In this document: positions 3,503 through 16,087 of the stretch, one piece after another
Position numbering within the stretch: position 1 is the stretch's first letter
Layout of the letters: each line of letters starts with the position of its first letter
Assembly (NCBI GenBank): GCA_904394215.1
Contig: CAJFNF010000027.1
Location: forward strand, 1-47,873
Source: an uncultured Faecalibacterium sp.
Lineage (GTDB): Bacteria; Bacillota; Clostridia; Oscillospirales; Ruminococcaceae
Direction: 5' to 3'
Length of the DNA: 47,873 bases
Position numbers and translations under genes: made by a program
The notes under the pieces: model-generated
What the model was told of the DNA's origin: nothing
Databases searched by the model: none
What the model saw: the letters and a program-made list of their open reading frames with translations, nothing else

Positions 3503-4666
3503 ATGTTTACCATTCAGACTTTAAATGCCATCAGCCCGGTGGGCCTGGCCAAACTGCCCAAGAACCTGTTTGAGGTGGCGGTCAACGCCGACGCCCCCGA
3601 CGGGATCCTGGTGCGGAGCGCCGACCTGCTGAACACCGAATTCAAGCCCAACCTGCTGGCCATTGCCCGGGCCGGCGCCGGCGTCAACAACATCCCCCTG
3701 GACCGCTGCAGCGAGCAGGGCATCGTGGTGTTCAACACCCCCGGCGCCAACGCCAATGCGGTGGCCGAGCTGGTCACCGGCATGCTGATTGCCGGCAGCC
3801 GCAACGTGCCGGCAGCCGCCGTCTGGGCCCAGGACCTGGCCGGGGACCCCAACCTGAAGAAGGATGTGGAGAAGGGCAAAAAGCAGTTTGTGGGCAATGA
3901 AATTGCCGGCAAGGTGCTGGGCGTCATCGGCCTGGGGGCCATCGGTTCCCGGGTGGCCAACAACGCCATCAGCCTGGGGATGGAGGTTTACGGCTACGAC
4001 CCCTACATCTCCATCGACGCTGCCTGGAACCTGAGCAGCCAGGTCCATCACTGCGTCAACCTGAACGATATGCTGCCCCTGTGCGACTATCTGACCATCC
4101 ACGTCCCCTATCTGCCCACCACCAAGGACACCATCAACGCCCAGACCCTGTCCCTGTGCAAGGACGGCGTCAAGGTGCTGAACTACGCCCGGGGCGAGCT
4201 GGTGAACAATGCCGCCATCCTGGAAGCCCTGGACAGCGGCAAGGTGGCCATGTATATGACGGATTTTGCCGCCGAGGAACTGCTCCATAAGCCGGGCGTC
4301 ATCTGTACCCCCCACCTGGGCGCCTCCACCCCCGAGGCGGAGGACAACTGCGCCATCATGGCCGCCCAGGAGCTGAGCGACTATCTGCGGAACGGCAACA
4401 TCACCCATTCGGTGAACATGCCCGACGTCCGCCAGCCCCGTGCCGGCGGCAGACGGGTCTGCATCATCCACAGGAATGAGCCGGGCGTCATCAGCCAGAT
4501 CACGGCTCTCACCACCGCCGCCAAGCTGAACATCGAGAACATGGTGAACAAGAGCAAAAAGAACATGGCCTACACCATGCTGGATGTCACCGGCGCCATG
4601 GACGCCGACCAGCTGAAACAGAAGCTGGCCGAGATCCCGGCCGTCATCCGGGTCCGCATCCTGTAA
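3503..4666 (+). CDS. serA: D-3-phosphoglycerate dehydrogenase (387-residue form with ACT domain)
   Basis: Oxidises 3-phosphoglycerate to 3-phosphohydroxypyruvate with NAD+, the committed step of serine synthesis. The 387-residue protein has a split substrate domain, a Rossmann domain with GLGAIGSRVANNA (about residues 145-157), the catalytic arginine in NYARGELV, and the histidine of TPHLGASTPEAED. A C-terminal ACT domain (GGRRVCIIHRNEPGVISQIT) suggests feedback by serine. It lacks the extra intervening domain of long SerA enzymes. The ATG is preceded by GGAGG. A strong terminator follows. serB is not in this window. Confidence 0.95.
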   Translation: MFTIQTLNAISPVGLAKLPKNLFEVAVNADAPDGILVRSADLLNTEFKPNLLAIARAGAGVNNIPLDRCSEQGIVVFNTPGANANAVAELVTGMLIAGSRNVPAAAVWAQDLAGDPNLKKDVEKGKKQFVGNEIAGKVLGVIGLGAIGSRVANNAISLGMEVYGYDPYISIDAAWNLSSQVHHCVNLNDMLPLCDYLTIHVPYLPTTKDTINAQTLSLCKDGVKVLNYARGELVNNAAILEALDSGKVAMYMTDFAAEELLHKPGVICTPHLGASTPEAEDNCAIMAAQELSDYLRNGNITHSVNMPDVRQPRAGGRRVCIIHRNEPGVISQITALTTAAKLNIENMVNKSKKNMAYTMLDVTGAMDADQLKQKLAEIPAVIRVRIL

Positions 4667-4677
4667 ATCAAATCCAA

Positions 4678-4714
4678 AAGCCCCGGGCTGCCTCCACAGC
4701 GGCCCGGGGTTTTC
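4678..4714 (+). terminator. Terminator of serC-serA
   Basis: Stem CCCCGGGC (4681-4688) with GCCCGGGG (4702-4709), then TTTTCT, starting 15 bases after the serA stop codon. Confidence 0.85.
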
Positions 4715-4720
4715 TGATGG

Positions 4721-4756
4721 AAAAAGCCGCCCCGGTGAGGTGCCGGGACGGCTTTT
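4721..4756 (-). terminator. Terminator of the dcw (mra) operon
   Basis: Read leftward, AAAAGCCGTCCCGGC pairs with an imperfect GCCGGGGCGGCTTTTT arm and ends in a T-run. It lies just past the murE stop codon and faces the serA terminator, insulating the two convergent operons. Confidence 0.75.
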
Positions 4757-4775
4757 GCTGTGTCTTGTTCGGTTG

Positions 4776-6254
4776 TTATTCCAGGCCGATCTGGCGGGCG
4801 TACTCTTCCAGCAGTTCCCGCTCCAGGAATGGGGTCTTGACCCCCATCCGGTCCCGGTAGGTCTCATGACCCTTGCCGATGACGGCGATCAGGTCCCCGG
4901 GCTGGGCGTGGTCCACCGCATAGTGGAGGGCGTCCAGACGGTCGGGGATCTCCACAAACTTGGCGTCGGGATTGCCCTTCATCATGCCCTGGCGGATGTC
5001 GGCCAGGATGTCCTCCACCTTTTCAAAGCGGTTGTTGTCCTCGGTGAGGATGGAGAAGTCGGCCATCTTGGCGCAGATCTCACCCATGCCGTAGCGGCGG
5101 AGCTTGGAGCGGTTGCCGCCGCAGCCGAACACCACCACCAGCCGGTGGGGGTTGTAGGCCCGCAGGGTGGTCAGCAGGCTCTCGGTGGACACCTCGTTGT
5201 GGGCGTAGTCCAGCAGGATGGTAAACTTTTTGCTGATGGGCACCAGCTCCACCCGGCCCTTCACCACGCAGCGGGCCAGGCCGTCGTGGATGGCCTGATC
5301 CGGCACACCCAGCTCCTTGCCCACAGCCAGGGCGGCCAGGGCGTTGTAGACGCTGAACGAGCCCGGCATGTTGACCCGGACGTCCATCACGTCCTTGCCG
5401 CTGACGTGGAAGGTGACCCCCAGGAAATCATGGGTCCGCAGCAGCTGGCAGTCTCCGGCCCGGTAGTCGGCCTTCTCCCCCATGCCGTAGGTTACCAGCC
5501 GGCAGGTGTGGCCTTCCAGCAGGGCCTCGGTGTTGGGGTCGTCGATGTTGACGATGCCGGTGTCGCAGCGCTGGAACAGCTTGCCCTTCCAGCTGCGGTA
5601 TTCCTCAAAGCTGGCGTGTTCGCCGGGGCCGATGTGGTCGGGGGACAGGTTGGTAAAGACGCCCACGTTGTAGTGGATGCCGGCCACCCGGTCCATCATC
5701 AGGCCCTGGCTGGAAACCTCCATCACCACCGTGTCACAGCCGGCCTCCACAAAGGTGTGGAAGATCTTCTGCAGCTCATAGCTCTCGGGAGTGGTGTTGG
5801 CAGTGTCCTCATGGTGGCCCATGTAGTAGACGCCGTTGGTGCCGATCATTCCCACCTTGCGGCCCGCAGCCTCCAGAACGCTGCGGATCATGTGGGCGGT
5901 GGTGGTCTTGCCCTTGGTGCCAGTGACGCCGATCATGGTCATCTTCCGGGAGGGGTTGCCGAACAGGTTGGCGCTCATCAGGGCCATGGCATAGCGGCTG
6001 CTCTCCACCTTCAGGACGGTGACCCCGGCCAGGCCGGCCAGGTCGATGTCGTGCTGGATCACAATGGCTGCGGCGCCCTTGGCGGCGCAGTCGGCGGCAT
6101 AGTCATGGCTGTCCCGCTGGGTGCCCACAATGCAGACAAACAGGGTCCCGGGTCCGGCTTTCCGGCTGTCGTAGACAATGTCGGTGATCTCGGTGTCCAT
6201 GCTGCCCTGTACCAGGGTACAGGCAATTCCTTCGGTCAAAGCAGATAATTTCAT
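4776..6254 (-). CDS. murE: UDP-MurNAc-tripeptide synthetase (MurE), variant substrate motif
   Basis: ATP-dependent cytoplasmic ligase that adds the third amino acid to UDP-MurNAc-L-Ala-D-Glu. The 492-residue protein has the Mur P-loop GVTGTKGKTTTAH (about 110-121), NTTPES, the NLSPDHIG motif, LLDYAHNE and the MurE-typical IGKGHETY (460-464). The residue-selecting motif, DNPR in meso-diaminopimelate enzymes, reads DNNR (406-409) here: the arginine that contacts the diaminopimelate carboxylate is kept but the proline is changed. The ATG at 6254 (family-typical MKLSAL, GAGGAG 10 bases ahead) is preferred over the ATG at 6272, which overlaps the upstream stop codon. murE normally sits between the PBP gene and murF; here it ends the cluster. 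Confidence 0.93.
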   Translation of the reverse strand: MKLSALTEGIACTLVQGSMDTEITDIVYDSRKAGPGTLFVCIVGTQRDSHDYAADCAAKGAAAIVIQHDIDLAGLAGVTVLKVESSRYAMALMSANLFGNPSRKMTMIGVTGTKGKTTTAHMIRSVLEAAGRKVGMIGTNGVYYMGHHEDTANTTPESYELQKIFHTFVEAGCDTVVMEVSSQGLMMDRVAGIHYNVGVFTNLSPDHIGPGEHASFEEYRSWKGKLFQRCDTGIVNIDDPNTEALLEGHTCRLVTYGMGEKADYRAGDCQLLRTHDFLGVTFHVSGKDVMDVRVNMPGSFSVYNALAALAVGKELGVPDQAIHDGLARCVVKGRVELVPISKKFTILLDYAHNEVSTESLLTTLRAYNPHRLVVVFGCGGNRSKLRRYGMGEICAKMADFSILTEDNNRFEKVEDILADIRQGMMKGNPDAKFVEIPDRLDALHYAVDHAQPGDLIAVIGKGHETYRDRMGVKTPFLERELLEEYARQIGLE

Positions 6255-6268
6255 CGCTGATTCACTCC

Positions 6269-7699
6269 TCATTCGGTCTGCCCCTCAGCAGGGGTCTGTT
6301 GATCCTGCCCGTCCGCAGCGGGGGTCTGGGCAGCGGTTTCCTCCTGGGTTTCTGTGCCGGCAGCTGCCGTCTCTGTGCCTTGGTCAGGCTGCTGGTCCGG
6401 GGCGGCTGTTTCTTCGCCGGCGGCAGCCTCTTCTCCAGCGGTGGTTCCGGTGTCTGCTGCCGGGTCTGTGCCATCGCCGGTTTCACCGGCGGCATCCTCT
6501 TCGGCAGCCGTCTGATCCGGCACCACATAGCCCGAGGGCAGTTCCGGCACGCCCTGGGCAAAGATGGCCTGCAGGGTGCCGTCGGTCTTGACATGGCTGC
6601 AGTCCAGCTGGCCGGTGTCGGTCTCGGCGCAGCCCTTGCCTTCCTTGTTCAAAAGCATGTATTCCGCATAGTCCAGCTTGTAATCCAGTTCGTTCAGGGT
6701 TCCCAGCAGGACGCTGATCCGGTCCTGGTAGAGGAAGGCGATTTCCTCTACGCTCTCGTACTCGATGCGGGTCACATCCTTCAGCAGATCCCGCTCCTGC
6801 AGGGCGGCCAGCAGGGTGTTCAGAGCGTCCACCCTGCCGTCCTTGGCCTGGACTTTTTCCTCATCGCTGGCGGCCGAAGAGGCCGACGAATCCGCCTCAC
6901 CGCTGAGGGCGGGGTCGGACAGGGCGTAGGTCAGCTGGTCGCCGGGGGTCACGCTCACCGGCTCCCCGCCGTAGAGCACCGGCAGGTCGGGCTGCTCCGC
7001 CTCGGTGGAGAGGATTTTCAGCCCCGCCGACAGGCTGATCCAGCCGGTGTCGGTCTGCATGGCATAAGCCGGGGTGGCGGGTTTCACCTCCACCACCACG
7101 GTGCTGGGGTACACCCGCTTGACCTGGATCTGTTCCAGCAGGGGAAATTCCTTTTCCAGCATGGCCGCCTTTTCTGCGGGGTCAAAGCTGAAGATGTTTT
7201 CCTCCACCTGCACCCCCAGGGCATCCAGGATCTGGCTGCTGGTATAGCCCCCCGCCTCGGTGAGATCGGCCCCGTCGGGGCCTGCCACCCGGATGGCGTT
7301 GATCTTGAACAGCATGGTGACGGTCAGATAGATGCCTGCAGCTGCTACGCACAGCACCAGGGCCACCGCCGTCAGCCGCCGCATCATCCGGCGGCGGCGG
7401 AGCATTTTCCGGGTGACCCGGCGGCGACGGCGCACTTCCCGGCGGGGCGCCGACTGGGAAGGCCGGGGCCGCGCCGGCCGGCGGCTGTCAGGCTGCTGAG
7501 ACGGCCTGGTCCTCCCGGTGGGAAACTCCACCAGGTTGTCCCCCCGATTGGCCCGGGGCGGATGCTCATAGAAAAAGCTGTCCTCCACCCGCTGCTGCCC
7601 GGCGGCAGGCGGGGTGGGGCGCTGTCTGGTCTGCCCCTGCTGGGGGCGCTGCGGGGCGGTCCGGCCCGATGGCCTGCGTCTCCGCTTTTTGGCTGGCAT
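6269..7699 (-). CDS. ftsQ: FtsQ/DivIB-like division protein with basic head and acidic tail
   Basis: A 476-residue bitopic membrane protein likely equivalent to FtsQ/DivIB, which links FtsL and FtsB-type proteins with the septal PBP/FtsW pair. The cytoplasmic part (1-108) is rich in Arg, Pro and Gln with blocks such as RRRRVTRKMLRRRRMMRR. One transmembrane helix lies at about 109-131. A POTRA domain follows (FKINAIRVAG, YTSSQILDALGVQVEENIFSF, FPLLEQIQVKRVYPSTVVVEV), then a beta domain. The last ~80 residues are an Ala/Glu/Thr/Gln-rich acidic tail outside the membrane, unusual for DivIB. Start: ATG at 7699 with AGGAGG nine bases ahead. Its stop overlaps an upstream alternative ATG of murE. The family call is based on fold pattern and cluster position. 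Confidence 0.82.
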   Translation of the reverse strand: MPAKKRRRRPSGRTAPQRPQQGQTRQRPTPPAAGQQRVEDSFFYEHPPRANRGDNLVEFPTGRTRPSQQPDSRRPARPRPSQSAPRREVRRRRRVTRKMLRRRRMMRRLTAVALVLCVAAAGIYLTVTMLFKINAIRVAGPDGADLTEAGGYTSSQILDALGVQVEENIFSFDPAEKAAMLEKEFPLLEQIQVKRVYPSTVVVEVKPATPAYAMQTDTGWISLSAGLKILSTEAEQPDLPVLYGGEPVSVTPGDQLTYALSDPALSGEADSSASSAASDEEKVQAKDGRVDALNTLLAALQERDLLKDVTRIEYESVEEIAFLYQDRISVLLGTLNELDYKLDYAEYMLLNKEGKGCAETDTGQLDCSHVKTDGTLQAIFAQGVPELPSGYVVPDQTAAEEDAAGETGDGTDPAADTGTTAGEEAAAGEETAAPDQQPDQGTETAAAGTETQEETAAQTPAADGQDQQTPAEGQTE

Positions 7700-7773
7700 G
7701 CCGCTCCGCCTCCTTTCCTTTTGGCTCAAAATCCAATCCTGTCTGTATTTTTACAGTCGTTTTACACAGTTCG

Positions 7774-8901
7774 TCACGGTTCCTGCACCAGATGCTGCAG
7801 CTGGGCCACGATCCGGTCCAGGCTGTCATCCACCGACAGGGTGCGCGCGTTCCGGCCCATCCGGGCCAGGGTATCTTTTTCTGCCAGCAGCCGGGCCACC
7901 TCAGACACCAGCTTCTCGCCGGTCAGATCCTTTTCCTCGATGACCACAGCGGCGTCCACCTTGGCCAGCTCCAGGGCATTGTAGTACTGGTGGTTCTCGG
8001 CCACATTGGGGCTGGGGATCAGGATGGCGGCCCGTCCGGCAGCCTCCAGCTCGGCCAGGGTCAGGGCGCCGGCCCGGCTGATCACCAGGTCAGCCGCCGC
8101 CAGCAGCTCAGGCATGTTGTCGATGTATTCCCGGACCTCCAGGCTCTCCCCCCGGGAGAAGCCCTTCTGCTGTTCCAGATCCTTGAACAGCTGGACGCCG
8201 TACTGGCCGGTGGCGTGGAGATGGAGCACGTTCTTGTGGTTTTTCTGCTCCCAGGCACACAGGTCGGCCACTACCTCATTGATGCGCCGGGCCCCCAGGC
8301 TGCCGCCGAAGGAGAGGATCACAGTGCGGTCCCCTGCCTTTAGTTTGGCCCGGGCCTCTTCCCGGCGCCCGGCCCAGGCAAAGACCTCGGGCCGCACCGG
8401 GTTGCCCACCACCTGGGTTTTGCCGGGGGCGCCCAGCCGGTCGGCGCCGGCCTGCACCGCCGCAAACACCAGGTTCACATGGGGAGCCAGCAGCTTGTTG
8501 GTCACCCCCGGGAAGGCGTTCTGCTCATGGATGGCGGTCTTGATCCCCCGCTTGGCGGCGGCACGGACCACCGGACCCGACACGTAGCCGCCGCAGCCGA
8601 TCACCAGATCCGGCTTGACTTCGTTGAGGATGGCCTTGCACCGGGGCCCCGACCGGGCCAGGTTCCAGACGGTGATGAGATTCCGCCGCAGGTTTTGCGG
8701 GGAGATCCGGCGCTGGAAGCCAGTCACCTCGATGTGGTGGAAGGGGTACCCGGCCTGGGTCACCAGACGGTACTCCATCCCCTCTTTCCGCCCCGCAAAG
8801 TGGATTTCGGCGGAAGGGTCCGCCGCCCGCAGCGCTCCCGCAATGGCGAGGGCCGGGTTGATATGGCCGGCAGTACCGCCGGCTGCAATCAGTACGCGCA
8901 T
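7774..8901 (-). CDS. murG: UDP-GlcNAc:lipid I GlcNAc transferase (MurG)
   Basis: Peripheral membrane GT28 glycosyltransferase that adds GlcNAc to lipid I to make lipid II. The 375-residue protein opens with MRVLIAAGGTAGHINPALAI, the membrane/lipid I binding motif of the family (GGTxGHxxPALA), and carries ISFGG-type LSFGGSLGARRIN and the UDP-GlcNAc motif with SRAGALTLAELEAAGRAAILIPSP, where the donor-binding glutamate is present. The ATG at 8901 has AGGAGG eight bases ahead. It lies between ftsW (96-base gap) and ftsQ (74-base gap) in the dcw operon. Confidence 0.97.
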   Translation of the reverse strand: MRVLIAAGGTAGHINPALAIAGALRAADPSAEIHFAGRKEGMEYRLVTQAGYPFHHIEVTGFQRRISPQNLRRNLITVWNLARSGPRCKAILNEVKPDLVIGCGGYVSGPVVRAAAKRGIKTAIHEQNAFPGVTNKLLAPHVNLVFAAVQAGADRLGAPGKTQVVGNPVRPEVFAWAGRREEARAKLKAGDRTVILSFGGSLGARRINEVVADLCAWEQKNHKNVLHLHATGQYGVQLFKDLEQQKGFSRGESLEVREYIDNMPELLAAADLVISRAGALTLAELEAAGRAAILIPSPNVAENHQYYNALELAKVDAAVVIEEKDLTGEKLVSEVARLLAEKDTLARMGRNARTLSVDDSLDRIVAQLQHLVQEP

Positions 8902-8997
8902 AAGCGATTCCTCCTGTCCGGACGGTCCGGACTTTTTCCCAACAAAATCCCATCCGCGGTCAGGCGGACGGGACGGCAGCAAACAACTGCCGGGATA

Positions 8998-10323
8998 TCA
9001 CATCCCGGCCTGACGGCCTGCAGTGGGCCGGCGGATCTGGTCCAGCACGATGGCGGGCCGGGCCGTTTCCTCGTGGATCTTTTCCTTTTGGGCGGCCCGG
9101 CGGGCTTCCGCAGCCCGGGCGCCGTTGCGGCCAATGTGGATCATAACCCCCATCTCGGCCATCAGCAGCAGAAGGCTGGTGCCGCCGGAGGAGAAGAAGG
9201 GCAGGCTGATACCGGTGTTGGGCAGGGTGTTGGTGACGACGGCCACATTGCAGAACACCTGCCAGCCCACCTGGGCCATGATGCCCACGCCCACCAGGGT
9301 GCTGAACCGGTCAGCCGCCTGGAAGGCGATCAGGAATCCCTGGACCAGCAGCAGCACGAACAGCAGGATGACCACCACAGCCCCCACAAAGCCCAGTTCC
9401 TCGCAGACCACGCTGAAAATAAAGTCGTTGGTGCATTCGGGCAGCCACAGCTGTTTTTCCACGCTGTTGCCCAGGCCCAGGCCGGTGAGGCCCCCCGAGC
9501 CGATGGCGTAGAGGCTCTGCAGGGTCTGGTCGGTCATCTTGGTCAGATCCTGAGTCCAGCCGTCCAGACGGGACTGCAGGTAAGGGATGGCGTCGATGTG
9601 GGACAGGACCGTCTCCAGCAGCAGCACCGATGCCACAGCGCCGCCGTAAGTAATGACACCGCCGCTGCCGTTCAACAGCAGGATGCTGCCCACGATGGCG
9701 CACATCAGGATGATGCCGGACATATGGGGCTCCAGCGCCAGCAGTACCACCACCGGCAGCAGGGGCGCCAGGGGCACCATCAGCTCCCGCACCACCTTCT
9801 GGTACAGCCAGCGGCCGAAGTTGCCGGCCACCTGCCGGACCCCGGGCTTGCCCTGGAGTACCAGGCGGGGGGTCCGGCTGGCCAGATGGGCGGTCAGCAG
9901 GATCATCTCAAACTTCACCAGCTCGGAAGCCTGCAACGTGGGCAGGCCCCGGATGTTGATCCACCGGCGGCAGCCGTTCAGCGGCTCGCAGAACAGAACG
10001 ATCACCAGCAAAACCAGGCTGATGAGGTATCCCGGCCACACAAACTTGCGGATAAACCGCAGGTCAATGTAGGAGAAAACCGTCATGACCCCCACCCCGA
10101 TCAGGGCGTACAGGGACTGGGACTTGATATAATAGAAGCTGTCTCCCATCCGCAGGTAACCGGTGGTATAGCTGGCGCTGAACAGCATCACCAGCCCAAA
10201 AATCACAATCAGCGCCAGCGTCGCCAGCCAGCCGATGGTCAGCGGCGTCCACGGTCCGGGATTGCGCTGCAATACCACCACCGGCCCGTTGGGGTCGCGG
10301 CGTCTTCTTCTTGCAACGGCCAT
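8998..10323 (-). CDS. ftsW: FtsW-type SEDS glycosyltransferase
   Basis: SEDS-family polymerase of lipid II at the septum, acting with a class B PBP. The 441 residues include about ten membrane helices. Family motifs are SASYTTGYLRMGDSFYYIKSQ, NGCRRWINI followed by QASELVKF, and the extracytoplasmic LPECTNDFIFSVVCEELGFVG holding the conserved Asp, plus NTGISLPFFSSGGTSLL near the end. The N-terminus is Arg-rich (AVARRRRRD) and the C-terminus is a 50-residue charged cytoplasmic tail. The ATG at 10323 follows AAAGGTG; upstream codons fall in the gap after mraY. FtsW rather than RodA is preferred from cluster position. Confidence 0.93.
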   Translation of the reverse strand: MAVARRRRRDPNGPVVVLQRNPGPWTPLTIGWLATLALIVIFGLVMLFSASYTTGYLRMGDSFYYIKSQSLYALIGVGVMTVFSYIDLRFIRKFVWPGYLISLVLLVIVLFCEPLNGCRRWINIRGLPTLQASELVKFEMILLTAHLASRTPRLVLQGKPGVRQVAGNFGRWLYQKVVRELMVPLAPLLPVVVLLALEPHMSGIILMCAIVGSILLLNGSGGVITYGGAVASVLLLETVLSHIDAIPYLQSRLDGWTQDLTKMTDQTLQSLYAIGSGGLTGLGLGNSVEKQLWLPECTNDFIFSVVCEELGFVGAVVVILLFVLLLVQGFLIAFQAADRFSTLVGVGIMAQVGWQVFCNVAVVTNTLPNTGISLPFFSSGGTSLLLLMAEMGVMIHIGRNGARAAEARRAAQKEKIHEETARPAIVLDQIRRPTAGRQAGM

Positions 10324-10385
10324 AAGAAACACCTTTCTTTCCATGGTTGACCCCATGCCCGTTTCCGGCGGGCCGGGTAAAAAAT

Positions 10386-11411
10386 TCAAAGCTGCGCCGT
10401 GCGCAGGGCGGCCAGGGTGCCGGCCAGCGCCAGGGTGCAGAAGACATAGAACACAGCCACAGGGCCGCCCTTTTTCCGCAGCCAGCCCTCAAAGCTGCCC
10501 TGCCGGAACAGCGGCCGGCGGCCAAGCCGCCGCCACAGCCCCTGGAGCACAGCGGCCAGCCCTTCCACCCAGAAGGGCAAAGCCAGGGCCAGGGCGATGT
10601 CGGCCCGGCCGATGGACAGGGGGATGCCCCCCACTGCGCCGGCCAGGAACAAAGTTCCCACCGCCCCCGGCAGCAGCCGGGCGGGATAAAAATTCCACAG
10701 CAGGAAGGCCATCAGGGCCCCGGCCAAAGCCGCCGGCAGCACCGCCAGCGGGAAAAAGCCCAGGATGGTCTCTGCCCCCATCAGCCCCAGCATGGCCACA
10801 AAGGCGGCCCCGGCGGCAGCGCCGTCGGCGGCCCCGGACAGCCGGGCCGACTCGCTGAGGGCCACCAGCATCACCGCCCAAAGGGGGGCAGCAGCGGTGC
10901 CCAGTTCCAGATAGCCGGTGCCGGGCAGGGTCAGGCCGGTGGGCATGGCCCCGTTCAGATAGAGGGCTGCCACCGTCACCAGAGAGGCGGCGGCTTCCAG
11001 GGCCAGACGGGCCCCCGGCCGCAGGCCCAGCACCTGCCGGGGCCGCAGCCGGGCCAGGTCGTCGGCCAGGCCCGCAGCGCCGAACAGGAACCCGGCCCCC
11101 AGGCCCAGCATCAGCCGGCCGGTGAGGCCGCCTCCCAGCAGCTCAGGCTGGACCAGGCAGACCACCACCCAGCCCACCCCCACCGCAGCCAGGGTGCCGA
11201 TGATGAAGCACAGTCCGCCCATGGTGGGCAGGCCCCGGGGTTCGGCGGGTTCAGGCTCGTGTTGGTGGTCCGGCCGGTTCGGTTTGCTGCCGGTCCCGGT
11301 CTCCTGCTGGGGCGGAACCAGGGCCCGCAGCAGCGGGACCAGCAGGTTCCCGACCGCGGTCGTCAGGGCAAACCCCAGCACCGACGCCACGATCAAGGCA
11401 AATCGTATCAT
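10386..11411 (-). CDS. Degenerate MraY-like protein lacking catalytic residues
   Basis: A 341-residue polytopic membrane protein in the mraY slot of the dcw cluster (between murF and ftsW). Homology to MraY, which transfers phospho-MurNAc-pentapeptide to undecaprenyl phosphate to form lipid I, shows in GLPTMGGLCFIIG (about 60-72), GLADDLARL (Asp117-Asp118, the conserved pair), FLLWNFYPARL and the overall helix spacing. The other active-site parts are gone: the LTDGLDGLA motif reads LSGAADGAA, the catalytic Asp of MGDTGSL is Ala250 (PGAVGTL), and the IHHH loop is RQGS (303-306). Composition is very Ala/Gly/Leu-rich. The frame is intact with a normal ribosome site, so it is probably expressed. 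I infer an inactive or repurposed MraY homologue; a functional mraY or equivalent should exist elsewhere. Confidence 0.85.
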   Translation of the reverse strand: MIRFALIVASVLGFALTTAVGNLLVPLLRALVPPQQETGTGSKPNRPDHQHEPEPAEPRGLPTMGGLCFIIGTLAAVGVGWVVVCLVQPELLGGGLTGRLMLGLGAGFLFGAAGLADDLARLRPRQVLGLRPGARLALEAAASLVTVAALYLNGAMPTGLTLPGTGYLELGTAAAPLWAVMLVALSESARLSGAADGAAAGAAFVAMLGLMGAETILGFFPLAVLPAALAGALMAFLLWNFYPARLLPGAVGTLFLAGAVGGIPLSIGRADIALALALPFWVEGLAAVLQGLWRRLGRRPLFRQGSFEGWLRKKGGPVAVFYVFCTLALAGTLAALRTAQL

Positions 11412-11437
11412 GATCTCAATCTCCGATCCAATGATGT

Positions 11438-12838
11438 TCAGCCGTTGGTTTCGGGCTGGTCCTTGGCAGCGGCGTCCTGCAGGGCGCAGAACCGGTCCAC
11501 CGCATTTTCCAGCGCCATGCCCCGGCTGCCCTTGAAGAGGATGGCATCCCCCGGCCCGGCGGCTTTGGCCAGCAGGCCGGCGATCTCGTCATAGTTGTTG
11601 GCATGAACCGTCTTGACCCCCTTGGCGGCGGCCACCGTAGCGGTGCGGTGGGCCAGCTCGCCGTAGGTCACCAGGACATCGATGTCGCACTGGGCCACCA
11701 GCCGGCCCAGATCCTCATGGGCAGGCCGGCCCTGGTCTCCCAGTTCCAGCATATCGGCCAGCACTGCAAACCGCCGCTTGCAGGGGAAATCCTTGAACAT
11801 TTCCAGGGCGGCCTTCATGCTGTTGGGGTTGGCGTTGTAGCAGTCCTTGATGATTTTGACCCCGTGGCTGTCCAGGATCTGCTGGCGCATGCCGGTCTGG
11901 CGGAACGCCTTCATCTGCTTCAGGGCGTCCCGGGGGTCCAGCCCCGCCTGGATGGCGGCGCAGTAGGCGGCCAGGGCGTTGGCCACATTGTGGCGGCCCA
12001 GGGCGCCGATATGGACCATGAAGCAGCCATTTTCTGCGTCATCCAGCAGGAAGCTCATGCCGTCGGCCTCCTGTCGGATGGCAGAGGCATAGACGTCCGC
12101 CTCCTGGCTGGCCATGCTGAACCACACCGGCCGCACATGGCCGGGCAGCTTGGCCTTCCGCAGGAAGGGGTCGTCATAGTTCAGGATCAGGGGGGCGCCC
12201 TCCGGCATCCCCTCACAGATTTCCAGCTTGGCCTTGCAAATGTTCTCCTGGCTGCCCAGGTTGCCGATGTGAGACATGCCGATGCAGGTGATGATGCCGA
12301 TGTCCGGCTTGGCGCAGCGGGACAGCCGGCTGATCTCGCCGGCGTGGTTCATGCCCATCTCGATCACTGCATACTGGGTGCCGGCGTCGATCTGGAACAG
12401 GGTCCGGGGCAGGCCCAGCTCGTTGTTCTGGTTGCCCTCAGTCTTGATGGTCTTGCCCAGGGCCTCCAGGGCGGTGGCGCAGAACTCCTTGGTGGTGGTC
12501 TTGCCCACGCTGCCGGTAACCCCCACTACTTTGGGGGAGAACTGGGCCCGGTAGTTGGCGCCCATCTGCATCATGGCCTGGTAGCTGTCGGGGCAGAGGA
12601 TGGTTTTTTCGGCGGGGACGCCCTCCACCGGGTGGTTCAGCACCACCCAGGCAGCGCCGTCCTCCAGCGCTTTGGCTGCAAAGTTGTGCCCGTCAAAGTG
12701 CTCGCCCGGAAACGCCACAAAGACGCATCCCGGCACAACCGCACGGCTGTCGGTGGTCACCAGCGTGACCGCCTGTTCGCCGGTCCGCTCTGCAGGCGCC
12801 AGGCCTGCCAGGAGGATGTTGGCTGCAATGTGTTCCAT
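11438..12838 (-). CDS. murF: UDP-MurNAc-pentapeptide synthetase (MurF)
   Basis: Cytoplasmic ATP-dependent ligase that adds D-Ala-D-Ala to UDP-MurNAc-tripeptide, giving the substrate of MraY. The 466 residues carry the Mur P-loop GVTGSVGKTTTKE (106-118), NQNNELGLP with the MurF-typical substrate contacts, IEMGMNHAGEI, the central GRHNVANALAAYCAA, KDCYNANPNSMKAAL and C-terminal FKGSRGMALE. The ATG at 12838 follows AAGGGG seven bases upstream. It has its own predicted promoter (12872-12901) in addition to readthrough from the PBP gene. The mraY-like gene starts 26 bases downstream. Confidence 0.97.
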   Translation of the reverse strand: MEHIAANILLAGLAPAERTGEQAVTLVTTDSRAVVPGCVFVAFPGEHFDGHNFAAKALEDGAAWVVLNHPVEGVPAEKTILCPDSYQAMMQMGANYRAQFSPKVVGVTGSVGKTTTKEFCATALEALGKTIKTEGNQNNELGLPRTLFQIDAGTQYAVIEMGMNHAGEISRLSRCAKPDIGIITCIGMSHIGNLGSQENICKAKLEICEGMPEGAPLILNYDDPFLRKAKLPGHVRPVWFSMASQEADVYASAIRQEADGMSFLLDDAENGCFMVHIGALGRHNVANALAAYCAAIQAGLDPRDALKQMKAFRQTGMRQQILDSHGVKIIKDCYNANPNSMKAALEMFKDFPCKRRFAVLADMLELGDQGRPAHEDLGRLVAQCDIDVLVTYGELAHRTATVAAAKGVKTVHANNYDEIAGLLAKAAGPGDAILFKGSRGMALENAVDRFCALQDAAAKDQPETNG

Positions 12839-12871
12839 ATCGAATCCCCTTTCCTGTCTTGATCTCTTTCT

Positions 12872-12901
12872 ATTATAAATATAGCGTGTTGGCTGTGGCA
12901 A
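12872..12901 (-). promoter_or_regulatory. Internal promoter ahead of murF
   Basis: Read leftward: -35 TTGCCA (12896-12901), 18-base spacer, -10 TATAAT (12872-12877), in an A/T-rich island inside a GC-rich cluster. It would let murF and downstream genes be expressed independently of the PBP gene. Confidence 0.65.
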
Positions 12902-12944: not shown

Positions 12945-15437
12945 TCAGCCGCAGACGATGTTCACAATGGTACCCATCTGGACGCTGGAGCCTGCCGTCT
13001 CGCTCTGGCTCTGGACCAGGCCCTCGGCGCTGCCTTCCACCGTACAGTTGAGGCCAGCTGCCAGCAGCATCTGCCGTGCGAAATCGGCGCTCTTGCCGGT
13101 CAGGTCGGGCACCTCGGTGGTCTTGCCACCGTAGCCCTCGGTGTACAGATAGATGGTGGTGCCGCTGGGGACGGTGGTGCCGGCGGTGGGATACTGCCAG
13201 GTCACCGGGGCTGCGGTGTTGTTGCCGCTGCTCTCCACCAGCTGGTGCTTGAGGCCCCGGATGTTCAGGGACACCTGGGCGTTGCTCCACTCGGTGCCCA
13301 CCAGGTTGGGGACCTTGACGGTGGTGCCGCTGCGGTCCACCCCATCGGTGGCCACACCCAGATAGGGGGCAATCTCGCTGATGATGTTGCCCACCACAGG
13401 GGCTGCCAGAATCGAGGAGTAGTCGCTGTTGGCGTTGTTGGGGTCATCCAGCATCACATACACCAGGATCTGGGGGTCGTCGGCGGGCAGGACCGCTACA
13501 AAGGAGGCAGCCTTCTTGTAGTCGCCGTCGGCGCGGCGGTCCATGTTCAGCAGCTCGGAGGTACCCGACTTGCCGCCGATCCGGTAGCCCGCCACATAGG
13601 CGCGGTAGCCGCCGGTCTGGTTGGTGCCGTCGCCCACCTCATATTCCATGATCTGGCGGATGGTGTCGCTGGCGCTCTCGCTGATGACCTGGCGGCGGAC
13701 GTTGGAGCCGATCTGCTCCACCACGTTGCCGTTTGCATCCACAATCTGGTCCACCACGTGGGGGGTCACCAGGTAGCCGCCGTTGACGGCAGCCGCCACA
13801 GCGGTGCACACCTGCAGGGGGGTCACAGCCATCGACTGGCCGAAGGCCGAGGATGCCAGTTCCACCTCGCCCATGTTCTGGTCGGTGTAGTACTGCATGT
13901 AGGAGGTCTCGTTGGGCAGGTCCACGCCGGTCTGCTCGGTGAACCCAAAGGCCTTGAAATATTCATAGAAGGTGGACACCCCCACCCGCTGGGCCAGCTG
14001 GATGAAATAAATGTTGCAGCTGTTCCGCAGCGCCTCGGCCAGATTCTGGACGCCGTGGCTGTGGCGGCCTGCACAGTGGTAGGTCTGCTTGGCCACCGTA
14101 TAGGCGCCCGAGCAGTTGAAGGAGGTGCCATAGGTGGCGTTGCCCGAATCCAGGCCCATGGCCGCCGTGATCACCTTAAAGACGCTTCCGGGGTAGTACA
14201 GCTCGGTAATGGTCTTGTTTTTCCACATGATATCCCGGAAATAGCCCGAGTAGTCGGCCTCCGGGTCAAGGATCTTGTTGCCTTCTTCGTCGGTGACGTA
14301 GCTGCCGTCCTCGTTTTTCAGGTAGATGCCGTACAGCTCGGGCTCCGCCCGGACCAGCTCCTCCAGATAGGCCTGGTTGGCGGTATAATCGTTGGGATTG
14401 TTGGGGTCAAAGTCGGGCTTGGAGGCCATGGCCAGAATGCCGCCGGTCTTGACGTCCATCACAATGGCGCAGCCGCGGTTTTCCACCGTGTTGGCTGCAA
14501 TGGCCTCGTTCAGATACCGCTCCACCACTTCCTGGATGGTGCTGTCCAGGGTCAGAACCAGGCTGCTGCCGTCCTTGGCGTCATAGGTGACGGCGCTGCT
14601 GTCAGCGATGGCGTTGCCCCGGGCGTTGCGGATGGTGACGGTGCGGCCGTCGGTTCCGGCCAGTACATCGTTGTAAGATTTTTCCAGTCCGTAGAATCCC
14701 TCGCCGTCCGCATTGGTAAAGCCCAGCACCGACGCCGCAAAGGCGCCGTAGGGATAGTTCCGCTGGTAGGTGCGGGAGGAGGACAGGGACAGCCGCCCGG
14801 TGCCCTTTTTGGCGTTGCGCTCCGAGACATAGGACTCGATGGACTCCTTCACCGCGTTGTTGACCTTTTCGGCCAGCACCTGGTAGGAGGAGTCGATGTT
14901 GGTCAGGGCCTTGTAGATCTTCTCGTACTGGTCCATGTATGCCTGGGAGGAGGTGTCTACGCTGTCCAGGCTGACGCCGTCCCCCGACACCAGCCGCAGG
15001 GCCAGTTCCCGGCTGATCTCCGAGCAGGCGGCCTCGTCCACCGTATGGACGGCAGACTCCTCCTCTTCCCCGGTGTCGGGGTTGGTGGAGGTGACCTCCT
15101 GGCTGTTGTACAGGGCGGTGGAGTAGCTGGGGTCACACCAGATATCCCACACCACGCTGGTGGAGGCCAGCACCTTGCCGGTGGCGTCATAGATTTCGCC
15201 CCGGGTGGCCTGGACGGTGGTGTCCAGCAGCTGCTGGTCACTGGCATAGCGGCTGAACATCTCGCCGTTGCGGATTTGGATATTATAAAGGCTGCCCACC
15301 ACAATCACGGTGGCCAGGGCCACCGCGCCAATGGATACCGCCATGCCGATCACCCGGGTCTTGCGGGGGATGGGGACGGCGTCGGGCTCCCGGCGGAGCA
15401 TGAAGTTCCGCCGGCGCCTGTTGTTTTCCTGATTCAT
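12945..15437 (-). CDS. Class B penicillin-binding protein with two PASTA domains (FtsI/SpoVD type)
   Basis: Septal D,D-transpeptidase that cross-links peptidoglycan, working with FtsW. The 830 residues contain a short cytoplasmic head, one membrane anchor (about 30-50), the PBP dimerisation domain with RGEIYDATGKVLA, and a transpeptidase domain with SVFK (Ser418 to Lys421), SCN (473-475) and KSGT (Lys623). Two PASTA domains end the protein (about 705-770 and 771-830: VPNLVGTEWSNAQVSL and VPDLTGKSADFARQMLL), as in SpoVD, Pbp2B and PBP2x types that sense muropeptides or stabilise the divisome. The ATG at 15437 is preceded by AGGAG. A terminator-like hairpin lies between it and ftsL. No sporulation gene is nearby, so a vegetative division role is more likely. 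Confidence 0.93.
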   Translation of the reverse strand: MNQENNRRRRNFMLRREPDAVPIPRKTRVIGMAVSIGAVALATVIVVGSLYNIQIRNGEMFSRYASDQQLLDTTVQATRGEIYDATGKVLASTSVVWDIWCDPSYSTALYNSQEVTSTNPDTGEEEESAVHTVDEAACSEISRELALRLVSGDGVSLDSVDTSSQAYMDQYEKIYKALTNIDSSYQVLAEKVNNAVKESIESYVSERNAKKGTGRLSLSSSRTYQRNYPYGAFAASVLGFTNADGEGFYGLEKSYNDVLAGTDGRTVTIRNARGNAIADSSAVTYDAKDGSSLVLTLDSTIQEVVERYLNEAIAANTVENRGCAIVMDVKTGGILAMASKPDFDPNNPNDYTANQAYLEELVRAEPELYGIYLKNEDGSYVTDEEGNKILDPEADYSGYFRDIMWKNKTITELYYPGSVFKVITAAMGLDSGNATYGTSFNCSGAYTVAKQTYHCAGRHSHGVQNLAEALRNSCNIYFIQLAQRVGVSTFYEYFKAFGFTEQTGVDLPNETSYMQYYTDQNMGEVELASSAFGQSMAVTPLQVCTAVAAAVNGGYLVTPHVVDQIVDANGNVVEQIGSNVRRQVISESASDTIRQIMEYEVGDGTNQTGGYRAYVAGYRIGGKSGTSELLNMDRRADGDYKKAASFVAVLPADDPQILVYVMLDDPNNANSDYSSILAAPVVGNIISEIAPYLGVATDGVDRSGTTVKVPNLVGTEWSNAQVSLNIRGLKHQLVESSGNNTAAPVTWQYPTAGTTVPSGTTIYLYTEGYGGKTTEVPDLTGKSADFARQMLLAAGLNCTVEGSAEGLVQSQSETAGSSVQMGTIVNIVCG

Positions 15438-15553: not shown

Positions 15554-16087
15554 TCACTGGGCGCTGCTGGCCGAAGCTTCAGCCGGCGGATCGATGGTCT
15601 GCAGCAGGGAAGACACGCCCGCCTGCAGGGTATCGGTCCACTTTTCCACCGCCGTCTCCCGGCGGGTCAAAACGCTCTGGTCATCCAGGCGGATGTAAGT
15701 AATCTGGCTGTCATCGATCTTCATCAGACCCAGACGGCCGGCCACATCCTCCACATTGCTGATGTTGGACTGGACGTTCAGGGTAGTGGTATAGTAGTCG
15801 TTCTGGCTCTGGGCCGAGACCAGCTCTGCCTTGGCCTGGCGGATATCACCGCTCAGCTCCACGATTTTTGCCTCGCTGAACAGCAGCGCCACCGACAGGC
15901 CTGCCAGAACCCCCAGCGCCAGGATTTGCATCCCGTGCTGCATCATCGCGCGGAGCGGCGAGATGGCTTGCTTGCCGCCCTGCTCGACCCGCAGGTTCAT
16001 CCGCCGCTCGGGCTGGGGCGCCGGGCGGCGGACCGTCTGTGCAAAGGCAGTCCCGTTGTAATGATAATCGTATGCAGGCTGACCCAT
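15554..16087 (-). CDS. ftsL: FtsL-like division protein
   Basis: A 177-residue bitopic protein in the FtsL slot between rsmH and the septal PBP gene. It has a ~50-residue cytoplasmic head, one membrane helix (about 52-70, ILALGVLAGLSVALLF) and an extracytoplasmic coiled-coil segment (KIVELSGDIRQAKAELVSAQ) ending in the FtsL/DivIC-like VEDVAGRLGLMKIDDSQITYI. FtsL joins DivIB/FtsQ and DivIC to assemble and activate FtsW-PBP. Sequence conservation in this family is weak; the call rests on topology, the closing GLMK motif and location. The tail of about 45 residues after that motif is longer than usual. The ATG follows AGGAGA. Confidence 0.82.
   Translation of the reverse strand: MGQPAYDYHYNGTAFAQTVRRPAPQPERRMNLRVEQGGKQAISPLRAMMQHGMQILALGVLAGLSVALLFSEAKIVELSGDIRQAKAELVSAQSQNDYYTTTLNVQSNISNVEDVAGRLGLMKIDDSQITYIRLDDQSVLTRRETAVEKWTDTLQAGVSSLLQTIDPPAEASASSAQ

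Follow-up and report, generated by a model that had tools for sequence, protein, structure and literature searches.

MraY is regarded as a near-universal and essential enzyme and as a drug target. Two mraY genes in one bacterium are known from Planctopirus limnophila, in which neither mraY1 nor mraY2 is reported to be essential (PMC10632474). In Kitasatospora, an alternative MurG, a distant homologue encoded outside the dcw cluster, is reported to be able to substitute for the conserved dcw enzyme (PMC8092295), and the archaeal pseudomurein MraY-like protein (model NF053644) is placed outside the clan of bacterial MraY (PMC11915815). In the open-licence PMC literature, judged by titles and the openings of abstracts and with preprints outside the scope, no paper was found on the degeneration or replacement of MraY in Faecalibacterium or related bacteria. 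The locus considered here belongs to a gut genus which seems to have passed the MraY reaction to a divergent enzyme, the old protein being still under selection.

The window, that is, the whole stretch of DNA analysed, comprises 47,873 nucleotides of contig CAJFNF010000027.1 from an uncultured Faecalibacterium sp. (assembly GCA_904394215.1, a draft of 88 contigs, 93% complete). The genes of interest follow in the order murF, the mraY copy of the dcw cluster (hereafter the dcw copy), ftsW, murG, a weak ftsQ match and murE, the neighbours murF, ftsW, murG and murE being recognised by Pfam and NCBIfam matches, and the main features are as follows.

11438..12901, minus strand: murF, upstream neighbour (Pfam and NCBIfam)
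10386..11411, minus strand: degenerate MraY homologue of the dcw cluster, 341-aa ORF (PF00953, TIGR00445 and PDB sequence matches)
11214..11228, minus strand: PTMGG motif, residues 62-66, retained (alignment)
11058..11063, minus strand: Asp117-Asp118 pair, retained (alignment and residue scoring)
10821..10841, minus strand: LSGAADG, residues 191-197, replacing LTDGxDG (alignment)
10677..10697, minus strand: WNFYPAR, residues 239-245, within the best-conserved segment of the dcw copies of the genus
10662..10664, minus strand: codon of Ala250, replacing the catalytic Asp of GDTGS (PGAVG is residues 248-252)
10476..10496, minus strand: SFEGWLR, residues 306-312, replacing PxHHHxE (alignment)
8998..10389, minus strand: ftsW/SEDS gene, downstream neighbour, start codon provisional (Pfam and NCBIfam)
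7774..8982, minus strand: murG, exceeding its NCBIfam cut-off

The dcw copy is a true homologue of MraY and not a chance resemblance, because it matches PF00953 (61 bits against a gathering cut-off of 27; Pfam E 1.8e-16) and TIGR00445 (72.6 bits, below the equivalog cut-off of 192.05), and MraY accounts for five of its five PDB sequence matches. A single-sequence fold prediction gave a mean pLDDT of 51 and was left unused. The initial annotation had placed this gene at the position of mraY, with PTMGG and the Asp pair kept, LSGAADG and Ala250 as substitutions and the HHH loop gone; its location in the dcw cluster was borne out, the neighbours being murF and ftsW, and the alignment confirmed all these residues. 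In addition, Glu and Arg replace both conserved Asn directly upstream of LSGAADG, and the HHH positions are taken by Glu-Gly-Trp.

Some other properties of the cluster were recorded as well. The FtsW gene (8998-10389, minus strand) scores 260.1 bits, below the NCBIfam cut-off of 337.5, and the tree length of FtsW is second only to that of the dcw copy among six genes compared in Faecalibacterium. A PBP gene nearest to SpoVD (12945-15437, minus strand) reaches 447.6 bits against a cut-off of 688, and a small ORF at the ftsL position (15554-16087, minus strand) has zero NCBIfam matches at E 1e-5. On the plus strand, a 415-aa antisense ORF (10347-11594) covers the entire dcw copy, and comparable antisense ORFs overlie other genes of the dcw cluster in the window.

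In 31 Faecalibacterium genomes, the dcw slot was located through MurF anchors, and an MraY homologue adjoins murF in 30 of them, the slot of G017 being unlocated. Twenty-seven copies are full-length and open; that of G010 (locus L060, about 5922-7007; draft 79% complete) is divided between two reading frames and was left out of the alignments and counts, and those of G018 and G023 are cut by contig ends and were left out of the residue counts. Wherever murF, ftsW and an mraY-like ORF were all found, the ORF lay between the two genes. The MraY model alone had suggested the absence of the dcw copy in G002, G005, G022 and G026, which was wrong, as the ORF is present and PF00953 detects it.

The full catalytic set DDNNDDDHHH was found in 0/27 full-length copies of the genus, eight of which belong to single-contig genomes. 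Most copies retain the Asp pair, and the GDTGS Asp is retained in one of the 27 (G008), which has Glu at Asp117, His at one Asn and two His lost. G008 is also the only genome of the genus to reach the TIGR00445 cut-off, and it does so only when neighbouring frame sequence is counted (193.8 bits, after 191.9). Assembly or sequencing error, named earlier as what would refute the finding, has no support and is already refuted by the loss of catalytic residues in 27/27 full-length copies, including those eight; its probability is negligible.

The genome of the window contains two PF00953 genes, the dcw copy and a gene at C22:3474-3944, which is named MraYb here. The name mraY2 was avoided because it is in use for a P. 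limnophila gene. Profile searches of the draft with PF00953 and TIGR00445 revealed no canonical mraY elsewhere in this genome. Its MraYb consists of 319 aa with LDD, NVVNCTDGVDGL, MGDAGS and TPLHDHARKRLGWSDEQVV, and the nearest named relatives are Faecalibacterium records. MraYb is present in 31/31 genomes of the genus (as a fragment in G018). PF00953 gives two matches in 28 genomes, a single one in each of G017 and G023, and in G018 three fragments; each of the eight single-contig genomes has two such genes, one dcw-type and one MraYb, and no third kind was found among the 31 genomes.

MraYb scores below the cut-offs of the MraY model TIGR00445 (86.7 against 192.05 bits), the WecA model TIGR02380 (49.7 against 326.05) and the archaeal model NF053644 (57.9 against 450), and all five of its PDB sequence matches are MraY. 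Eight scored residues, DDNNDDDH, are intact in 113/113 extracted sequences (30 from the genus, 25 from the family and 58 named loci), and the catalytic Asp triad, NxxN and DGxDG are likewise present in all 113. The differences from canonical MraY lie in the PTMGG region and in the HHH loop, the counterpart of which is HDH in 109 sequences, HDE in three and HDQ in one. Five MraYb loci missed the motif filter by one variable residue (or Met for Leu), their catalytic residues being intact. An AlphaFold model built with 32 relatives has a mean pLDDT of 87.6 and a pTM of 0.89, and MraY entries fill the first 24 places among its PDB fold matches (TMq 0.72-0.81), human DPAGT1 coming next. Folate, transport and other genes, without a polysaccharide cluster, surround MraYb in the two genomes annotated. 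In the tree, 49 MraYb rows form one clan (100/100) on a long stem, apart from 13 TagO-like rows (100/100). The clan attaches weakly (89/98) beside two canonical MraY rows from MraYb-bearing genomes, and this placement is uncertain because the stem branch is long. An MraY-like subfamily without a characterised member is presumably present in CDD, and MraYb might belong to it.

The distribution of both genes was studied in 197 genomes of the family, three of them Faecalibacterium. The MraYb profile gave 28 matches of at least 299 bits, the next best being 77 bits; canonical MraY was taken as TIGR00445 E under 1e-40, a line drawn after the scores were known. In this way, 158 genomes have canonical MraY only, 23 have MraYb only, five have both and 11 have neither, so that the two genes are complementary (Fisher p 3.4e-17, kinship uncorrected). 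As a control, DDNNDDDHH proved to be intact in 40/40 canonical-only genomes (of 158; 20 taken near the top and 20 near the bottom of the scores listed), the third His differing in nine. The 11 genomes with neither are eight without a PF00953 match and three, G119, G156 and G221 (99%, 88% and 85% complete), with a degenerate dcw copy only; a second search found no MraYb in any of the 11. Among 24 genomes reached via named MraYb loci, two of them Faecalibacterium, 12 have canonical MraY above the cut-off and 12 do not, the latter including four records named Butyrivibrio. Genome G151 (95% complete) has no PF00953 gene and no MurG match and is perhaps devoid of peptidoglycan, or a contig is missing.

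Outside the genus set, 39 loci were fetched by murG. The slot is canonical in seven, holds a degenerate intact ORF in 22 and is empty in four, and no other dcw gene was recognised close to murG in the remaining six. Among the canonical reference loci, L007, L018 and L024 were left out of the comparison. The seven canonical slots belong to the five genomes with both genes and to the incomplete G174 and G176, and MraYb is present in 19 of the 22 genomes with a degenerate ORF. In G117, G128, G209 and G217, each 99% complete, ftsW directly follows murF, murG is kept and MraYb is the sole PF00953 gene; since such genomes exist, MraYb evidently does not need the dead copy in every lineage.

Several of these loci show peculiarities. 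In the copy of G119 (locus L242; G156 and G221 are L246 and L259), Glu replaces Asp at two catalytic positions, the scored residues being EDSTDDEHEH. The degenerate copies of G089, G119, G125, G156, G166, G196, G211, G215 and G244 share an insert of about eight residues within the NxxN..DGxDG loop. In L249 (G171), murE and murF lie within one open frame of 986 codons (5207-8164), which was used for both genes in the cluster tree, the pairwise omega values and the second rate set described below. In L275 (G096), a genome that also has MraYb, the MraY in the slot (4581-5600) looks canonical but carries Asn in place of the GDTGS Asp and Asp at the first Asn position, and may possibly represent an early stage of the same catalytic loss. 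Because G096 has this Asn, the catalytic set of the slot is intact in four of the five genomes with both genes.

In a tree of murE, murF, ftsW and murG from 43 genomes (murE from 40), the genomes with both genes sit beside degenerate ones: G072 and G187 group with Faecalibacterium (100), G123 with G084, G194, G260 and G269 (97), and G200 and G096 with G162 (100). Faecalibacterium was reduced to 14 genomes, which are joined by a branch with a support of only 77, and canonical-only genera are absent; ten of the 39 other loci were omitted, six without a recognised cluster and four fragmentary (G103, G174, G176 and G267). Provided that lost catalysis never returns, this tree would imply at least five separate inactivations.

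The dcw copy does not evolve as a pseudogene, which was rejected on omega. In a codon model of 24 Faecalibacterium genomes, which covers four genes, omega is highest for the dcw copy (0.128), followed by ftsW (0.091), MraYb (0.067) and murG (0.063), and the log likelihood of the dcw copy falls from -11787.75 in the free model to -12648.75 at omega 1 (best of three runs), i.e., it is 861 log units worse. Sixteen pairs within the genus gave pairwise values from 0.07 to 0.51, the top one from a pair with few changes. Seven degenerate pairs of other clades gave 0.20-0.33 in the five with dS <2, and 0.26 at dS 2.5 in the pair G221/G133, one further pair having no dS. Such low omega values mean that the dcw protein matters, though under looser constraint than the other genes compared.

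The constraint is distributed differently from that in canonical MraY. Of 67 columns conserved in the latter, those retained by the Faecalibacterium dcw copies (25 rows, G008 and G027 being excluded) are mostly Gly, Pro and hydrophobic residues, together with one Asp; both Asn, two His and the Asp of GDTGS are gone from these copies. In MraYb (18 rows), the catalytic columns are retained. With segment borders set by hand, TM7 with WNxxPA (0.81) and TM1 (0.70) have the highest mean pair identity in 27 dcw copies, and the PTMGG loop (0.40), TM10 (0.43) and the HHH loop (0.46) have the lowest. Canonical MraY has its peaks at GDTGS (0.89) and the HHH loop (0.69); as its rows are more diverse, the comparison concerns the pattern of identity and not its level. 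In degenerate copies from other genera, identity is low throughout (0.17-0.44 over the segments). Judging from these alignments, the constraint in the Faecalibacterium dcw copy has shifted away from the active-site loops and onto TM1 and TM7. In A. aeolicus MraY, W253, F254 and Q260 are reported to line the dimer interface and to bind undecaprenyl phosphate there (PMC9046198). TM7 of the dcw copy, where WNFYPAR aligns with this region, holds positions corresponding to all three residues, the numbering being matched by motif, which suggests a dimer or lipid role.

Possible partners of the dcw copy were compared by partial correlations of branch rates in 26 genomes of the genus, G024 with its short murE being left out, and in 14 genomes of other genera, without G246, which has no murE. 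The correlation with MraYb is 0.31 (p 0.03) in the genus and 0.42 (p 0.035) in other genera, with a combined p of 0.008, or about 0.04 allowing for five partners. For FtsW, rho is 0.41 (p 0.003) in the genus and -0.02 in other genera, so this link was rejected as unrepeated in the second set; for MurF, the values are 0.25 (p 0.08) and 0.42 (p 0.04), and MurG and MurE gave no signal in either set. These rates are a weak hint at MraYb as the partner of the dcw copy. According to the initial annotation, this protein may be a lipid carrier binder or a scaffold for MurG/FtsW: purifying selection and the shift to TM1 and TM7 fit a non-catalytic role, but the FtsW signal was unrepeated and MurG showed none.

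Summarizing these data, we consider it probable that a dead MraY has been retained in the dcw cluster and replaced in function by MraYb. The dcw gene would be the original mraY of the lineage, which lost catalysis and was kept as a non-catalytic protein, and the synthesis of lipid I from UDP-MurNAc-pentapeptide and undecaprenyl phosphate would have been handed to the divergent MraYb encoded elsewhere. That MraYb makes lipid I is, in our opinion, very likely. The genus-wide MraYb with intact motifs and its complementary distribution in the family give good support to the earlier expectation of a second active copy or a replacement, and the search for a canonical mraY advised at that time led instead to a separate clan. 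Three genomes speak against this explanation, since G119, at 99% completeness, and likewise G156 and G221 have a degenerate copy with no MraYb found, as do the score of MraYb below the MraY cut-off and its altered PTMGG region and HHH loop. The omega of the dcw copy, higher than that of the other three genes, the empty slots and the draft state of the window genome (93% complete) also count against it. Moreover, because five genomes of the family and 12 of the 24 named-locus genomes also carry canonical MraY, MraYb could have another task there. The same coexistence, the lack of an MraYb match in G119 and the acidic residues persisting in some copies (those of G119 and the Asp pair in most copies of the genus) would fit a dcw copy that is still MraY with rebuilt catalysis, MraYb doing something else, e.g., starting another glycopolymer. 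This is very unlikely, given that no full-length copy of the genus has the whole set and one has the GDTGS Asp, that MraYb is alone in the empty-slot genomes and that its folate and transport neighbours in two genomes include no polysaccharide cluster. Scarcely more credible is MraYb as a GlcNAc-1-P transferase of the WecA/TagO type, with lipid I coming from an unrelated unknown enzyme: the 49.7 bits on the WecA model and the long stem with its uncertain place would agree with it, but MraYb has NxxNCxDG and GW..xQVV instead of the NxxNxIDG-type motif and the HxHH(R/K) loop, and its best fold match is MraY. The identification of MraYb as TagO/WecA was rejected on these motifs, the separate clans in the tree and the distribution complementary to canonical MraY.

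As to the dead copy under the preferred reading, it would act in the membrane through its TM1/TM7 surface. A functionless leftover, persisting because decay is slow or because the operon couples its translation, would account for the great divergence of dcw sequences, the four empty slots and the two frames in the incomplete draft G010, but is improbable in view of the omega values in Faecalibacterium and in the five other-clade pairs, and of 27/30 full-length open copies in the genus, contig ends having cut two of the other three. The idea that MurG, FtsW or MurF is kept at the membrane by the dead copy, independently of MraYb, agrees with the constant place of the ORF between murF and ftsW and with the rates of FtsW in the genus and of MurF in both sets; the loss of the FtsW signal in the second set, the lack of any for MurG and the empty slot in four genomes retaining murF, ftsW and murG argue against it, and it is rather unlikely. 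A role as a partner of MraYb, in a heterodimer or in the presentation of the carrier lipid at the dimer interface, is proposed tentatively and seems slightly more likely than such a scaffold for the other members of the division cluster. Going further, one may speculate, with some doubt, that MraY here is a two-gene enzyme of an active MraYb and a dead dcw subunit giving the dimer interface, the carrier-lipid site or a divisome address, which was split independently at least five times in one family. If so, MraY catalysis would be separable from a non-catalytic function that canonical MraY would share.

If the replacement is real, annotating the dcw gene as MraY names the wrong gene, inhibitors modelled on the canonical enzyme may have other effects in these bacteria, and the dead copies offer a natural route to the roles of MraY besides catalysis. 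Among known systems, WecA/TagO polyprenyl-P GlcNAc-1-P transferases share the PF00953 superfamily and the DD and GDxG motifs with MraYb, but in 13 TagO-like rows they have NxxNxIDG (VDG in one) and HxHH(R/K), whereas MraYb has neither and forms its own clan. Like the archaeal pseudomurein protein, MraYb would be an MraY relative outside the bacterial MraY clan, and it matches that protein weakly, at the level of the model only, the host there being an archaeon (PMC11915815). The pair of genes recalls P. limnophila, and the replacement of a dcw enzyme from outside the cluster recalls Kitasatospora, where the enzyme is a different one and, in the accessible sections, no dcw gene is reported to be kept as a dead protein (PMC8092295). 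MraY itself (TIGR00445; PF00953; structures 5jnq, 4j72 and 8g01) resembles the dcw copy in homology, dcw position and structural glycines and prolines, and differs from it in the GDTGS Asp, both Asn and the His loop, which the copy has lost. MraYb departs from MraY in its ARGAG-type sequence for PTMGG, HDH for HHH, location outside dcw (two genomes annotated) and score below the model cut-off, and shares with it the three catalytic Asp, NxxN..DGxDG, GDxGS and, by prediction, the fold (best PDB match at TMq of about 0.80).
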